Shown piece by piece: positions 9,041 through 14,164 of a stretch of DNA of 64,000 bases (the stretch's first letter is position 1; the number at the start of each line of letters is the position of its first letter). The stretch is from an uncultured Pseudomonadales bacterium (GTDB lineage Bacteria; Pseudomonadota; Gammaproteobacteria; Pseudomonadales; Azotimanducaceae). Below the pieces are notes generated by a model. The model ran no database searches, was not told the origin of the DNA, and saw only the letters and a program-made list of their open reading frames with translations. A program made the translations under genes and the position numbers. Where the stretch lies: NCBI GenBank assembly GCA_958296195.1, contig OY282455.1, forward strand, positions 1,426,001 to 1,490,000, given 5' to 3'.

Positions 9041-9145
9041 AGTCAGCTGAAGGTTCTCTTCATGCGAGGGGTGCTCCCTCGCGCACCCCGGCTGAGCTCT
9101 TTCTTGCGAGGGGCATCCCCTCGCGCACCCCGGCTGAAGGCTCTT
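9041..9145 (+). repeat. Tandem palindromic repeats (forward) at the lnt start
   Basis: Two 42-bp units begin at 9064 and 9106, preceded by a partial unit (9041-9060). Each has a palindromic core of GCGAGGGG and CCCTCGC, followed by GCACCCCGGCTGA and a CTCTT segment. The partial unit supplies GAAGG (9049-9053), 8 nt before the ATG at 9062 used by lnt. The same family recurs at 9911-10042, 10172-10212, 10808-10846, 13452-13556 and, degraded, at 23681-23779. Confidence 0.85.
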
Positions 9146-10849
9146 ACCCTTGCGTTGGGTTTTGGGGCGTTGCTGCCGCTGAGTTTGGCGCCTTTTGACT
9201 GGTGGCCGCTGGGTTTAGTGTCCATTGCCGGGTGGCTTTGGCTGCTGGATCGTTCGGCGGCGGGGGCGGCGGCGCTGGGTTTTGCCTATGGCGTTGGCAA
9301 GTATGGTGTGGGGGTGAGCTGGGTCTATGTCAGCATTCACCTCTACGGTGGCGCCTCGCCTTGGCTGGCTGGGTTTTTGGTGCTGTTGTTCGTTTGCGGC
9401 TTGGCCCTGTTTACGCTGCTGCAAGGCTGGGCTTACGCGCTGTTGCGGGTGCCGCCCTCGTCCGGGCGTTGGGCGGCGGTGTTGTTCAATGCTTGGTTGT
9501 TCGCCGCCGTTTGGGTGCTGTTCGAGTGGCTGCTCACTTGGTTTCTAAGCGGCTTTCCGTGGCTCTATCCCGGCTACGGGCATCTGCGCACACCGTTGGC
9601 CCATCTCATTCCGGTGGGGGGCGTCAGCTTGGCCAGTCTAGGGGTGGTGGTCACCGCCGCCTTTCTGCTGCTGGCGTTGCAGCCGGAGCGAAGCTGGGGC
9701 TTTCGGGCGGCGGCCTTGGCAATTGGCGCCGCGCCTTGGCTGTTTGGCTTGGCGTTGTCCGCCGTGCAGTGGGTGGCACCGGCGGGGGAGCGCTTCGCCG
9801 CCTTGGTGCAGGGCAATGTCGATCAAGCGGTGAAATGGCGGCCGGAAAGCCGGGAACCCATCGTCAAGCGTTACTTGGGCTTAAGCGAACCCTACTGGGG
9901 CAGTCGCGCCCATGCGAGGGGCATCCCTCCGGGAAACTCGGCTGAGGGGTCTCTTCCTGCGAGGGGGGCCCCCACGCACACCCCGGCTGAAGGCTCTTTC
10001 ATGCGAGGGGCAAGCCCCTCGCGCACCCCGGCTGAAGGCTCTCTAATCGTCTGGCCGGAAGCGGCCATTACTCTGTTTGAACATGAAGCTGGAGATCTGT
10101 TGGAGCGGTTGGCGCGGCGTGGTGAGCAATCCGGCACCGCCTTGGTGCTGGGCCTTCCCCGTTTGCAGGCGCAGCCGAAGAGTGCAAGGCGGCACTCCTC
10201 GCATGAGAGCTCCTACGGCTTTCAGAATGCGGCTTTGGCGCTCGGCGACGGCGAGGGGCGCTACATAAAGCGCCGCCTGGTGCCGTTCGGTGAATATGTG
10301 CCCTTGGGGGAATTGCTGCGCGGCCTAATTGAATTCTTCGACCTGCCCATGTCCCGCAGCACACCTGGACCTTGGCGGCAGCCGCTGCTGCGCGTTGGGG
10401 CGGACGCCGCCGCCTTGGTCATCTGCTATGAGGTCGCCTACGCAGACCTCATGCGCAGCGCGGCGGCGGAGGCCGACTTGCTCATCACCATCACCAACGA
10501 CACTTGGTTCGGGCGCAGCATCGGCCCCTTGCAGCACCTGCAGATCGCTCAAGCCCGCGCCTTGGAGAACGGCCGCTGGCTGCTGCGCACCGCCAACAGC
10601 GGCGTCACCGCCATCGTGGACCATCAAGGGCGCATCACTGCCCGCCTGCCGCAATTTGAGCAGGGGGTACTAGCTGGAAACTTCCAAGTGATGGTGGGCC
10701 GCACACCCTACAGCCACTTCGGTAGTGCTTGGCTGACTGTCCTATGCGCCGCCACTCTATTGCTTGCGGGTTGGCAGCGCCGCTTGACGGATTACCCCGC
10801 CAATGAGACTGAGGGGATGCCCCCCGTAGGAAGGAACTCAGCCCGGTAG
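9062..10849 (+). CDS. lnt: Apolipoprotein N-acyltransferase Lnt with repeat-derived insertions
   Basis: A 595-residue inner-membrane enzyme that N-acylates lipoproteins in the last step of maturation. About five to six membrane helices (residues ~28-235) precede a nitrilase domain with catalytic residues Glu333 (WPEAAI), Lys403 (IKRRLVPFGEYVP) and Cys455 (VICYEV), all intact. A last helix lies near 565-580. It is longer than E. coli Lnt (512), mainly because of repeat-encoded segments: the first ~27 residues, a 43-residue in-frame insert (~284-326) seven residues before the catalytic Glu, ~14 residues at 371-384, and the C-terminal tail. The repeat also supplies the ATG and Shine-Dalgarno. 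Insertions fall in likely loops, so the enzyme is probably active. Confidence 0.93.
   Translation: MRGVLPRAPRLSSFLRGASPRAPRLKALTLALGFGALLPLSLAPFDWWPLGLVSIAGWLWLLDRSAAGAAALGFAYGVGKYGVGVSWVYVSIHLYGGASPWLAGFLVLLFVCGLALFTLLQGWAYALLRVPPSSGRWAAVLFNAWLFAAVWVLFEWLLTWFLSGFPWLYPGYGHLRTPLAHLIPVGGVSLASLGVVVTAAFLLLALQPERSWGFRAAALAIGAAPWLFGLALSAVQWVAPAGERFAALVQGNVDQAVKWRPESREPIVKRYLGLSEPYWGSRAHARGIPPGNSAEGSLPARGAPTHTPAEGSFMRGASPSRTPAEGSLIVWPEAAITLFEHEAGDLLERLARRGEQSGTALVLGLPRLQAQPKSARRHSSHESSYGFQNAALALGDGEGRYIKRRLVPFGEYVPLGELLRGLIEFFDLPMSRSTPGPWRQPLLRVGADAAALVICYEVAYADLMRSAAAEADLLITITNDTWFGRSIGPLQHLQIAQARALENGRWLLRTANSGVTAIVDHQGRITARLPQFEQGVLAGNFQVMVGRTPYSHFGSAWLTVLCAATLLLAGWQRRLTDYPANETEGMPPVGRNSAR
9911..10042 (+). 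repeat. Three palindromic repeat units inserted in frame in lnt
   Basis: Units start at 9914, 9959 and 10003 (GCGAGGGG), spaced 45 and 44 bp, same orientation as the upstream copies. They are translated as part of Lnt in the frame giving ARG-(A/I)P-x-x-TPAEGS. The first unit has a damaged right arm, the second a changed core, the third a good palindrome. Alignment with E. coli Lnt (EPYLGRASLIIWPE) shows that the surrounding protein is continuous and that only these ~43 residues are extra. Confidence 0.85.
10172..10212 (-). repeat. Degenerate palindromic repeat copy, reverse orientation, inside lnt
   Basis: The + strand here (CAGCCGAAGAGTGC then CTCCTCGCATGAGAGCTC) aligns over ~41 bp with the reversed units at 13459-13542. 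The palindrome is eroded. It encodes residues ~371-384, at a point where other Lnt proteins have only a short loop between GLPR and the FQNAALALG strand. Confidence 0.65.
10808..10846 (-). repeat. Degenerate palindromic repeat copy at the lnt 3' end
   Basis: Read on the minus strand, this matches the CGGCTGAG..TTCCT..GGGGCATCCCCTC portion of the repeat. It encodes the last ~13 residues of Lnt, up to the stop codon. The left part of the unit is missing. Confidence 0.55.
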
Positions 10850-10993
10850 CGGCGCGAAGTACCCCGCAACGGTAACCGCTGTGCCGTTGATGACTGGCCT
10901 CCGCCTTGAAAGGGTCCACTTTTCGTTCGGGCTGCCGCTTTCCGGCCACTCTTGCAAGGTGATATCGTTGCGTTTTTGCCAGCCGGCGCCACC

Positions 10994-13450
10994 ATGACCG
11001 ACCAACAGGACCGCTACGACCCCGCCGCCGTGGAGCGCAAATGGCGCGAGCGCTGGGAGCGGGATGGCGTCAACCGCATGACCGATGCGGATCTGCAGAA
11101 CGCCAAGAACCCCTACTACAACCTGATGATGTTCCCCTATCCGTCCGCTGAGGGGCTGCACATCGGCAACATCTACGCCTACACCGGCGCCGACGTGAAC
11201 GGGCGCTTTTGGCGGCTGCGCGGCAAGGAAGTGTTCGAACCGATTGGCTTTGACGCCTTCGGCATCCACTCGGAGAACCACGCCCTCAAGGTGGGCGGCA
11301 ACCCGAACGACCTCATTCCCAAGAACATAGAGAACTTCACCCGGGTGCTCAGGCGCTTCGGCGGCATGTTCGACTGGAGCCACGCCGTCGATACCACCCA
11401 CATCAGCTACTATCGCTGGACGCAGTGGGTGTTTCTGCAGCTCTACCAGGGCGGTTTGGTGGAGCGGCGGGAGGCGCCGGTCAACTGGTGCCCCTCCTGC
11501 AAGACGGTGCTGGCCAACGAGCAGGTCTTGAGCGGCCTGTGCGAGCGCTGCGAGTCCGCGGTGGAGACGCGGCAACTGCCGCAGTGGTTCTTCAAGATCA
11601 CCCAATATGCCGAGAAGCTGCTGGACAATCTAGAGGAAATCGACTGGTCCGAGGTCACCAAGAAGGCGCAAGCCAATTGGATTGGGCGCAGCGAGGGTGC
11701 GGAAGTGGATTTCCCCATCGCTGCTGCCGACGGCGCAACGGACGCCGCCATCCGCGTGTTCACCACCAGGCCGGACACCCTGTTCGGGGCCACCTACATG
11801 GTGCTGGCGCCGGAGCATCCCTTGGTCGATGCGCTCACCTCCCCAATCCAGCGCCAGGCCGTGGCGGAGTACCGCGCCGAGGTCGCCGCCCGGGATCTGG
11901 TGGAGCGGCAGAAGATCGACAAGGAGAAAACCGGCGTCTTCACCGGCGGCCATGCGATCAATCCGGTCAACGGTGCCCGCATCCCGGTGTGGATTGCGGA
12001 CTATGTGCTGACGGGCTACGGCACTGGCGCCATCATGGCCGTACCCGGCCACGATCAACGGGACTTCGAGTTCGCCAACGCCTTTGGCTTGCCAGTGGTT
12101 CGCGTCATCGCCGGCCCCGGCGAAGACGCCGCCACCCCCTTGGCGGAAGCCTACGCGGGTGACGGTGTTCTGGTGCATTCCGGGCCGTTCGATGGGCTGC
12201 CCATTGAGGCAGGCAAGCAGGCCATCGTGCAGCGCCTCTCCGCCGCCGGCAGCGCGGTGCCCAAGACCAACTATCGCCTGCGCGATTGGTGCGTCTCCCG
12301 CCAGCGCTACTGGGGGCCGCCCATCCCCATCATCCACTGCGCGGATTGCGGCCCGGTACCGGTGCCGGAGGCCGACCTGCCCGTTGAACTGCCCCATTTG
12401 CAGGACTTTCGTCCGGACGACAGCGGCGAAAGCCCGCTGACTAGAGCAGAGGCTTGGCATCGCGCCCCCTGCCCAACCTGCGGCAAGGCCGCCGAGCGGG
12501 ACACCGACGTCACCGACAACTTCCTGTGCAGCGGCTGGTACTTCCTGCGCTACCCCTCCGCCGGCCGGGACGATGCGGCCATGGACCCGAAGCTCACCGC
12601 CAAGTGGCTGCCGGTGGACTCCTACATCGGCGGCAACGAGCATGCGGTGCTGCACCTGATGTACGCCCGCTTTTTGACCATGGCCTTGCATGACCTCGGG
12701 GTGATCGACTTTGACGAACCCTTCCGCCGGTTCCGCGCCCACGGCCTGCTCATTCGAGAGGGGCGCAAGATGTCCAAGAGCAAGGGCAACGTCATCGTGC
12801 CGGACGCCATCATCGACGAGTACGGGGCGGACGCCATGCGCCTCTACCTCATGTTCCTTGGCGCCTACGAACAGGGCGGGGATTACCGGGGCGCCGGCAT
12901 TCAGGGGCCATACGGGTTCCTCAACCGTCTGTGGCAGAGCGTCGCCGAAGCGGATTTGGATGAGGATGCGCCCCCGGCGGCGGAGGTGGAGCGCAGCCTG
13001 CACCGCACCATCAAGCAGGTCACCGAGCAGGTGGCGGAGCTTCAGTTCAACACCGCCATCGCCGCCATGATGGAGTACATGAACGTGGTGCGCGCCGGCG
13101 GGCGGCGGCCTCGGGTCGCGGAGCTGCTGCCCTTGGTGGTGATGGTCGCGCCGTTCGCACCGCACATCGCCGAGGAGCTGCACGAGCGGCTGGGCTTTGC
13201 GCAAAGCCTGTTCACTTCCGCCTGCTGGCCGAACTTCGATCCGGCCAAGCTGGTCGAAGCAACCCAGAACATCGCCGTGCAGGTGAACGGCAAGGTGCGC
13301 GGCCAGGTGCAGGTGCCGGCCGACACCGGGGAGGACGCTGTGCGGGCGGCGGCCGAGCGGGAAAGCAACGTCGCCCGCCATCTGGCCGGCAAGCGCATCC
13401 GCAAGGTGATCTACGTGCCGAACAAGTTGGTCAATTTGGTGGCTGCATGA
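10994..13450 (+). CDS. leuS: Leucyl-tRNA synthetase, atypical subtype
   Basis: An 818-residue class I synthetase charging tRNA-Leu. HIGH motif as GLHIGN (~55), zinc-type cysteines WCPSC and CERC (~165-190), editing domain with TTRPDTLFGATYMVL (~255), KMSKSKGN (~592), anticodon-binding domain and a C-terminal tail ending KVIYVPNKLVNLV. The catalytic N-terminus (PSAEGLHIGNIYAYTG, FDAFGIHSEN) differs from the usual gammaproteobacterial form (PSG-x-LHMGHVRNYTIGD, DAFGLPAENAA). It resembles a LeuRS type I associate with other phyla. ATG 10994 is taken rather than a TTG at 10952. The gene lies in the normal gammaproteobacterial position before lptE and is flanked by palindromic repeats, which suggests replacement by transfer. 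Confidence 0.95.
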   Translation: MTDQQDRYDPAAVERKWRERWERDGVNRMTDADLQNAKNPYYNLMMFPYPSAEGLHIGNIYAYTGADVNGRFWRLRGKEVFEPIGFDAFGIHSENHALKVGGNPNDLIPKNIENFTRVLRRFGGMFDWSHAVDTTHISYYRWTQWVFLQLYQGGLVERREAPVNWCPSCKTVLANEQVLSGLCERCESAVETRQLPQWFFKITQYAEKLLDNLEEIDWSEVTKKAQANWIGRSEGAEVDFPIAAADGATDAAIRVFTTRPDTLFGATYMVLAPEHPLVDALTSPIQRQAVAEYRAEVAARDLVERQKIDKEKTGVFTGGHAINPVNGARIPVWIADYVLTGYGTGAIMAVPGHDQRDFEFANAFGLPVVRVIAGPGEDAATPLAEAYAGDGVLVHSGPFDGLPIEAGKQAIVQRLSAAGSAVPKTNYRLRDWCVSRQRYWGPPIPIIHCADCGPVPVPEADLPVELPHLQDFRPDDSGESPLTRAEAWHRAPCPTCGKAAERDTDVTDNFLCSGWYFLRYPSAGRDDAAMDPKLTAKWLPVDSYIGGNEHAVLHLMYARFLTMALHDLGVIDFDEPFRRFRAHGLLIREGRKMSKSKGNVIVPDAIIDEYGADAMRLYLMFLGAYEQGGDYRGAGIQGPYGFLNRLWQSVAEADLDEDAPPAAEVERSLHRTIKQVTEQVAELQFNTAIAAMMEYMNVVRAGGRRPRVAELLPLVVMVAPFAPHIAEELHERLGFAQSLFTSACWPNFDPAKLVEATQNIAVQVNGKVRGQVQVPADTGEDAVRAAAERESNVARHLAGKRIRKVIYVPNKLVNLVAA

Positions 13451-13451
13451 G

Positions 13452-13556
13452 AGCCTTCAGCCGGGGAGCGCGAGGGGGTACCCCTCGCATGACAAAGCTC
13501 AGCCGGGGAGCGCGAGGGGGTACCCCTCGCATGACAAAACTCAGCCGGGGAGCGCG
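13452..13556 (-). repeat. Palindromic repeats (reverse) between leuS and lptE
   Basis: Two nearly identical 42-bp units start at 13459 and 13501 on the + strand, with a third truncated unit from 13543. Each contains GCGAGGGGGTACCCCTCGC, an 8-bp-arm palindrome around GTA. Orientation is opposite to the copies around the start of lnt. The array follows the leuS stop codon by a few bases, and its end carries a GGGGAG that could serve as Shine-Dalgarno for an ATG at 13559. Confidence 0.85.
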
Positions 13557-13612
13557 GAATGGCAGGTGCCGGCGCGGCGCAGTTTGGGCTAGGGCAGTTC
13601 CATAAAGTCGCC

Positions 13613-14164
13613 ATGCAGCTTGCTGAATTTCGCAACGCCGCCTCGCGCCGGCTTGGGCTTGGTCAAGCAACCGGGTTGATCTTGGCTGCTTGCTTGGCTG
13701 CGGGCTGCGGCTTCCAGCTGCGCACTTGGGACTGGGCCGGCACGGACCTGCGCATTCACGTCCGTGCCGACGCCATGAGCGCCATGGCGGGACCTTTGCG
13801 CCGAGCGTTGGCCCAAGCCGGAGCGACGGTCAGCCCCGTGGCGGCCGACGCCGACATCGTCATCCGCATCCTCAACGAGCGGCGCTCCCGCCGCATCGCC
13901 TCCGTGGTCGCCGGCGCCAGGGCCGCGGAGTATGAGCTAGTGGCCGGCATCCAATACGCCATCCGCACCGGCAAGGAGCAGTTGGTTGCGCCCCGCTGGG
14001 CGGAAGCCTCCCGAGTGTTCAGCATAGACCGCACCAGTCTGACCGGCAGCAGCGAGGAGCAGGCCCTGATTGAGGGCGAACTGCAAACCGACTTGGTGCA
14101 GAATGTTCTGCGCAGCCTGAATGCGGCGGTGGCCGCGGCGCGGCGTTCCGCAGATGCAGCTTAA
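13613..14164 (+). CDS. lptE: LPS-assembly lipoprotein LptE
   Basis: About 183 residues. A lipoprotein signal ends in LAAGC followed by GFQLR, matching the AGCG-x-x-LR of LptE. The rest (IRILNERRSRRIASV, AAEYELVAGIQYAI, DLVQNVLRSL) fits the family. LptE plugs LptD in the outer membrane for LPS export. ATG 13613 gives a signal of normal length; ATG 13559, just after the repeat array, would add 18 residues and is an alternative. It overlaps holA by 11 nt, the usual lptE-holA pair. Confidence 0.9.
   Translation: MQLAEFRNAASRRLGLGQATGLILAACLAAGCGFQLRTWDWAGTDLRIHVRADAMSAMAGPLRRALAQAGATVSPVAADADIVIRILNERRSRRIASVVAGARAAEYELVAGIQYAIRTGKEQLVAPRWAEASRVFSIDRTSLTGSSEEQALIEGELQTDLVQNVLRSLNAAVAAARRSADAA

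Follow-up and report, generated by a model that had tools for sequence, protein, structure and literature searches.

In REP/RAYT systems, the RAYT gene (PF01797) is usually flanked by repeats. Palindromic repeats inside genes have been described under other names. In the available part of PMC2229807, the RPE is presented as a palindromic repeat of 105-146 bp with terminal inverted repeats, lying in frame inside conserved genes, where the translated insert is tolerated; its mover is unknown. The accessible portion of PMC3733652 describes intragenic GTAG and CGTC REPs as short hairpins, many of them within ORFs in several species, tRNA synthetase genes included. Over half of those within ORFs occur as dimers or groups; in Thauera and R. 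conorii, the stretch coded by a cluster runs from 43 to 82 residues. According to the same portion, CGTC repeats come without a dedicated transposase and REPtrons can be lost. In the mitochondria of Magnusiomyces, short inserts disrupt the frames of many coding genes and are skipped by ribosomes, as reported in the part of PMC5009743 at hand.

The repeats analyzed here form a family of 45-nt units. Like the RPE, they are palindromic and found in frame inside conserved genes, a likeness of descriptions rather than of compared sequences. They are set apart from the RPE described in the available part of PMC2229807 by their length, their unlike ends and their head-to-tail arrays. The difference in size does not hold for every RPE, as RPE-4 and RPE-6 are counted among the short CGTC repeats in the accessible portion of PMC3733652. 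Compared with the intragenic GTAG/CGTC REPs of that portion, the unit lacks the tag, and it is a codon-exact head-to-tail unit in which loop and linker compensate each other. Unlike the bypassed inserts of Magnusiomyces, as described in the part of PMC5009743 at hand, it keeps the frame and contains no stop. Short hairpins and many dispersed copies are shared with REPINs accompanied by a RAYT, but the RAYT family was not found in six of nine carriers.

The window is a 64-kb stretch (positions 1,426,001-1,490,000) of the source genome (G000), a single contig of 4,311,735 bases. A covariance model, R1, was built from 31 hand-picked units (one row carries a four-letter typing error) and run over the whole window with filters off. 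It returned seven full units of 40 to 70 bits, one truncated unit and one decayed unit between 9058 and 13575 (Table 1), a match that is partly by construction as some of these units fed the model. Elsewhere in the window, R1 matches were never above 9.7 bits. A sequence-only reading of this DNA had recognized at least nine units near lnt and leuS, in both orientations and as tandem repeats of 42-45 bp, and R1 agrees: the five full units in lnt are on the + strand, the two between leuS and the lptE-like ORF are on the - strand, and the periods given by TRF are 42 and 45. Its location of units inside core genes holds for lnt; the third array is intergenic, after leuS and before the lptE-like ORF, and not within leuS. 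The name lptE presumably applies to the ORF, given the gene order. A short 12-base piece taken alone matched 16 times in the window where 12.4 matches were expected, and so does not stand out from chance. Rfam recognized only two tRNAs in the window and no family for the repeats.

Table 1. Units and neighboring genes in the lnt-leuS-lptE region (positions in the window)
Feature	Position	Strand	Evidence
lnt (apolipoprotein N-acyltransferase)	9062..10849	+	LNT_N and CN_hydrolase matches
Unit 1, lnt 5' array, shortened at GGCTC end	9058..9099	+	R1, 54.5 bits
Unit 2, lnt 5' array	9100..9143	+	R1, 70.2 bits
Unit 1 of array inside lnt, diverged	9908..9951	+	R1, 40.4 bits
Unit 2 of array inside lnt	9953..9996	+	R1, 58.1 bits
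Unit 3 of array inside lnt	9997..10041	+	R1, 68.9 bits
Decayed unit inside lnt, opposite orientation	10169..10208	-	R1, 21 bits; alignment of 9 Lnt sequences
leuS, adjoins third array	10952..13450	+	Homology
Unit 1, leuS-lptE array	13451..13494	-	R1, 67.4 bits
Unit 2, leuS-lptE array	13495..13536	-	R1, 51.4 bits
Truncated third unit, only GCGCTCCCCGGCTGAG tail clear	13540..13556	-	R1 match 13540-13575, model 7-39, 15.4 bits
lptE-like ORF, downstream of third array	13559..14164	+	ORF call; homologues in relatives

In the 45-nt unit, GCTCCCCGGCTGARGGCTC follows an 8-bp hairpin whose loop has 3 or 4 nt. On one strand, the consensus of 31 units reads TTTCWTGCGAGGGG before this loop and CCCCTCGCGCTCCCCGGCTGARGGCTC after it. 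A palindrome pattern with a fixed 12-nt spacer gave no match because the loop is only 3-4 nt long. The lengths of loop and linker offset each other in the tandem arrays. Among 49 scored cases, with each class entered once per array, a loop of 4 was combined with a linker of 5 in 26 and a loop of 3 with a linker of 6 in 13, giving a total of 45 nt in 39; other combinations make up the remaining 10 (Fisher p = 2.6e-7 for the association, four main cells). Where arrays are read in frame, 18 of 20 unit spacings are multiples of three; in the remaining arrays 46 of 65 are, so the length of 45 characterizes the unit more than the genic arrays. Five of the six reading frames of the unit are stop-free, and the sixth holds a stop.

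On the right, the unit has a sharp edge: GGCTC is followed by C or T in 92% of 127 arrays, and the sequence is free beyond that base. On the left, the edge is less well defined and rich in pyrimidines. Such edges would be consistent with insertion between pyrimidines. The two ends, TTTCW and GGCTC, do not mirror each other as inverted copies, and terminal inverted repeats of the MITE type are absent. No clear target-site duplication was seen at L011 and L089 (loci are designated by L numbers, genomes by G numbers), and L009 and other single units are flanked on both sides by GCTC. The GCTC kept on the left of some single units may be a short duplication or the remnant of a neighboring unit. 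Covariation lends modest to weak support to the hairpin: three cells in two stem pairs are changed on both sides, and pairing amounts to 96.0% compared with 94.9% in shuffled alignments, 4 of 500 shuffles being as high. Folding of the unit as single-stranded DNA was not stronger than that of shuffles (z -0.6 to -1.5).

In lnt, two units are found at the N terminus and three in the nitrilase part. The ORF takes its first codons from both units of the 5' array, and the same site in the sister genome G001 has one unit. The internal array adds 45 residues directly before the conserved IVWPE strand. In an alignment of nine Lnt sequences (G002 and G003 left out), this site is without units in G004-G008, G014 and G011; G001 has three diverged units there, read by eye. 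The decayed unit coincides with the extra residues QPKSARRHSSHESS, which G001 has in a similar form. This reverse unit may explain nine further residues that, among the nine sequences, are common only to the source genome and G001. In an AlphaFold2 model of Lnt computed from nine sequences (mean pLDDT 65, pTM 0.68), the insert residues 283-324 have a pLDDT below 50 and lie between two more confidently modeled elements, a helix and a strand. As further stretches of the model are also below 50, this is a weak but fitting indication that the insert may be a floppy loop. The lnt gene of G001 (L232) has another in-frame insertion, of ~25 residues and located after YALLK, that is unlike the unit.

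The leuS gene, free of units in the source genome, has one inside in G001; this insertion was placed by homology and has a net length of 33, not 45. The units of the leuS-lptE array are nearly identical to each other, and the 200 nt that follow leuS in G001, G003-G008 and G014 yielded no unit (the G005 stretch holds Ns), so that this array is probably young. At the leuS-lptE junction of G002 and G004 (L206, L208), palindromic repeats of a different kind are present, GAGCGAGGGC..GCCCTCGA. Between lnt and leuS of G001 (L232), ~1 kb of extra DNA contains what looks like a nucleotidyltransferase/HEPN-type gene pair with similar repeats on its flanks.

The units are dispersed. Before R1 was built, a scan with the pattern CCCCTCGCGNNCNCCGGCTGA, allowing up to two mismatches, gave 27 matches in the source genome and 1 with the reversed control. 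R1 found at least 35 units at at least 20 places (E ≤ 0.001; 150 of 2,887 first-look candidates scored), and not the handful of copies at a single locus that the sequence-only reading had named as evidence against a mobile family. The survey covered 38 genomes, the source genome and 37 relatives. With one mismatch, the pattern was found in the source genome, in seven of the eight others of the genus, in a single one, G014, of the 16 that represent other genera of the same family, and in none of the 13 from other families, with one match of the reversed control over all 38. With up to 150 candidates scored per genome, R1 added G021 (11 matches of lower score and diverged form) and had no match in 28 of the 38, G003 included. 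The G021 matches L294, L304 and L314 sit inside a larger repeat of ~150 bp and were not counted as plain copies. This larger repeat is also present around L158 and L171; its outer arms are inverted in L304 and L314 (GTGRGCACAATCGCC / GGCGATTGTGCCCAC), and it could possibly be a vehicle.

At least 117 stretches with a unit were found by scanning the genomes of named species. Among the stretches listed, 113 are from Gammaproteobacteria or Pseudomonadales, two from Candidatus Azophilus lithoversatilis, one from Acidobacteria and one from Binatota. We take their isolate codes to be those of sponge metagenomes. Misbinning may explain the Acidobacteria and Binatota contigs (L089, L121); the L089 unit sits in a gene with 77% DNA identity to one of the source genome. 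Viral contigs gave no exact match to the unit, and in plasmids only its core was matched, in other bacteria.

Occupancy varies between relatives, and together with the many dispersed copies this supports the proposal of a mobile, non-autonomous family. The arrays contain 1 to 7 units. At the site of L014, G001 has a longer array (L275) of diverged units with GCGGG../CCCGC stems, which is array turnover in place. The flanks of L007 and L271, in the source genome and G001, are 99% identical, and ~630 bp are absent from the source genome; with one end of the gap in the L007 array, this suggests a deletion at repeats. Slippage and template switching alone, acting without a transposition system, might create and spread such units as a minisatellite. 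The size range of the arrays and the longer diverged array in G001 fit this explanation, as does the finding, given below, that none of three tested mover families accounts for all carriers. It is nevertheless unlikely: of the 127 arrays, 76 consist of one unit only and occupy unrelated sites, and the near-consensus units of G014, whose LeuS is 72% identical, contrast with the decayed copies in lnt, which suggests a dispersing source.

The comparison with REP and RPE made by the sequence-only reading divides in two. Its RPE half is sustained by the units found in frame in genes. Its REP half is not, as the consensus of 31 units has no unpaired GTAG or CGTC tag at the foot of the hairpin, and the RAYT that it proposed to look for elsewhere was not found in most carriers. 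No match to PF01797 was found in the source genome or in five of the eight other carriers (G001, G004, G005, G007 and G014), G000 and G001 being single-contig genomes. The carriers G002, G006 and G008 have one match each, and the element-free G003 has two, one of which is below the curated cut-off. The RAYT-like proteins of G002, G006 and G008 contain an MPNHVH stretch, which we take to be the HUH motif. No unit was present in the stretches fetched around their genes. Y2 transposase (PF04986) and reverse transcriptase (PF00078) had no match in G000, G001, G002, G007, G008 and G014, and some matches in G004-G006. None of the three families therefore accounts for all carriers. A shared neighboring gene was also rejected as mover: when 623 ORFs were clustered and the 14 largest groups inspected, the largest group spanned 9 loci.

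It is possible that a mover, RAYT included, has since been lost. A classic REP/REPIN family moved in trans by a RAYT (Y1 HUH transposase) that is now missing from some genomes would have the size, hairpin and double orientation of the units, and RAYT-like proteins do exist in G002, G006 and G008; the accessible portion of PMC3733652 offers precedents in intragenic and grouped REPs and in the loss of REPtrons. Such a family is rather improbable with no PF01797 match in six carriers and two in a genome free of the element, with no unit in the stretches around the three RAYT-like genes, and with no GTAG/CGTC tag.

The units are inserted in conserved genes and their frames are open. Among the 127 arrays with enough flank, 40 have coding-like sequence on both sides and 87 do not. 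The coding-like flanks are in the same strand and frame in 25 cases (23 of them stop-free), in the same strand and another frame in 10, and on opposite strands in 5. The same frame in 25 of 35 compares with an expected one third (p = 5e-6 if independent). A non-random sample of 33 arrays, drawn from the coding-like ones and the source genome, was read individually: 29 have a convincing frame, three have poor scores and one has no open frame. Frame use is uneven among the 29 (chi-square p = 0.0005), with 15 of the EPSAGEREG type, 5 of the QPGSARG type, 5 of the RGASPSRSPAEG type, 3 of the LSRGARG type, 1 of the CEGRAPRAPRLR type and none in the sixth frame, which has the stop. A Pfam family over the cut-off was found in 19 of 20 array-bearing proteins scanned, Lnt included. 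The arrays lie in or between conserved stretches in RpoB, PurD, CarB, an inositol phosphatase (seven units), a TonB receptor and Lnt. In L009, L011 and a hydrolase (seven units), the array closely follows a conserved stretch. In the other scanned proteins, the array precedes or follows the domain. The arrays of L105 (MutL), L014 and L144 may be upstream of the true start.

The joined flanks of 147 arrays were compared with 314 loci to find empty sites. For 12 arrays, a homologue without recognizable units was found, in some cases a paralogue. The net length of the insertion is a multiple of three in all 12: 45 four times, then 33, 42, 54, 90, 96, 120, 129 and 207 (a probability of about 2e-6 by chance if independent). 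L011 and L009 are the best cases. For the ATPase gene of L011, empty paralogues are found in the same genome at a distance of 2 to 4 kb; they are shorter by exactly 45 nt, and to the right of the site they show no difference over 50 nt. The PDDEXK_9 gene of L009 has an empty paralogue, 45 nt shorter, in the same genome, and a further homologue in G001 gives a net length of 42. One of the four 45-nt nets (L169) sits among other repeats, and identity is no more than 67 to 71% in five of the 12 pairs (L012, L093, L105, L001 and L232). The 12 do not include four sites at which one flank could not be aligned (L024, L010, L014 and L015) and where forced global alignments gave nets of 40, -45, -160 and -87. 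As empty sites are visible only where the flanks are conserved, which favors coding DNA, the 12 of 12 reflects what is retained and not the mode of insertion. In-frame retention may result only from selection against broken genes together with this requirement for conserved flanks.

A hairpin repeat with an identical core outside the loop (GCGAGGGG, loop, CCCCTCGC, GCTCCCCGG) is intergenic in plasmids of Leisingera, Tritonibacter and Rhodovastum. Besides the source genome, the identical core is present in 8 of 398 genomes of the phylum, all of one family. These core-sharing repeats (L315, L316, L317, L318-L325, L327, L328, L330, L331, L333 and L335) differ from the unit in that their copies are single and mostly have GATATTT-like tails without the GGCTGARGGCTC end. 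Judging from the core, a common origin is possible. A functional RNA or DNA signal under selection, such as a terminator or a protein-binding site, with only accidental copies in genes, would accommodate this single intergenic repeat and the 87 of 127 arrays without coding-like flanks on both sides, but is very doubtful given the two orientations inside conserved genes, the tandem growth, the presence or absence between relatives, and Rfam hits in the window limited to the two tRNAs.

The units are best explained, with good though not full confidence, as a dispersed, non-autonomous palindromic DNA element that lodges in genes and between genes. An insertion of 45 nt would add 15 codons and keep the frame. 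Genes would survive the insertion because their frame stays intact and because the unit is free of stops in five of its six frames. The insert would be read as a hydrophilic, probably disordered segment, of the EPSAGEREG type on one strand and RGASPSRSPAEGS on the other. The inserts are probably translated and presumably neutral for the host protein. Once in place, units would duplicate or be lost as head-to-tail arrays, and old units would decay.

A more tentative proposal is that the length of 45 nt is itself an adaptation, and the element a mobile codon cassette that passes unharmed through proteins, with a mover outside the Y1, Y2 and RT families. It is drawn from the two loop/linker sublineages, both of which total 15 codons, and from the five stop-free frames.

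No description of the 45-nt unit family, or of any codon-exact 45-nt unit, was found in the literature searched, and the translated strings EPSAGERE, GASPSRSPAEG and SAGEREG retrieved unrelated work only. In the available part of a recent REP survey (PMC12306157), the word "sponge" is used only in another sense. Coding palindromic inserts in Rickettsia and intragenic REPs in several other bacteria are already known, as the accessible portion of PMC3733652 relates. What is added here is a unit made exactly codon-sized by a compensating loop and linker, its expansion in tandem within genes, rpoB among them, and empty sites, even within one genome, that allow the insertions to be measured. Whether such elements are selected for translatability becomes directly testable, and the family supplies a natural series of 15-residue inserts, differing in number and age, in the same proteins.
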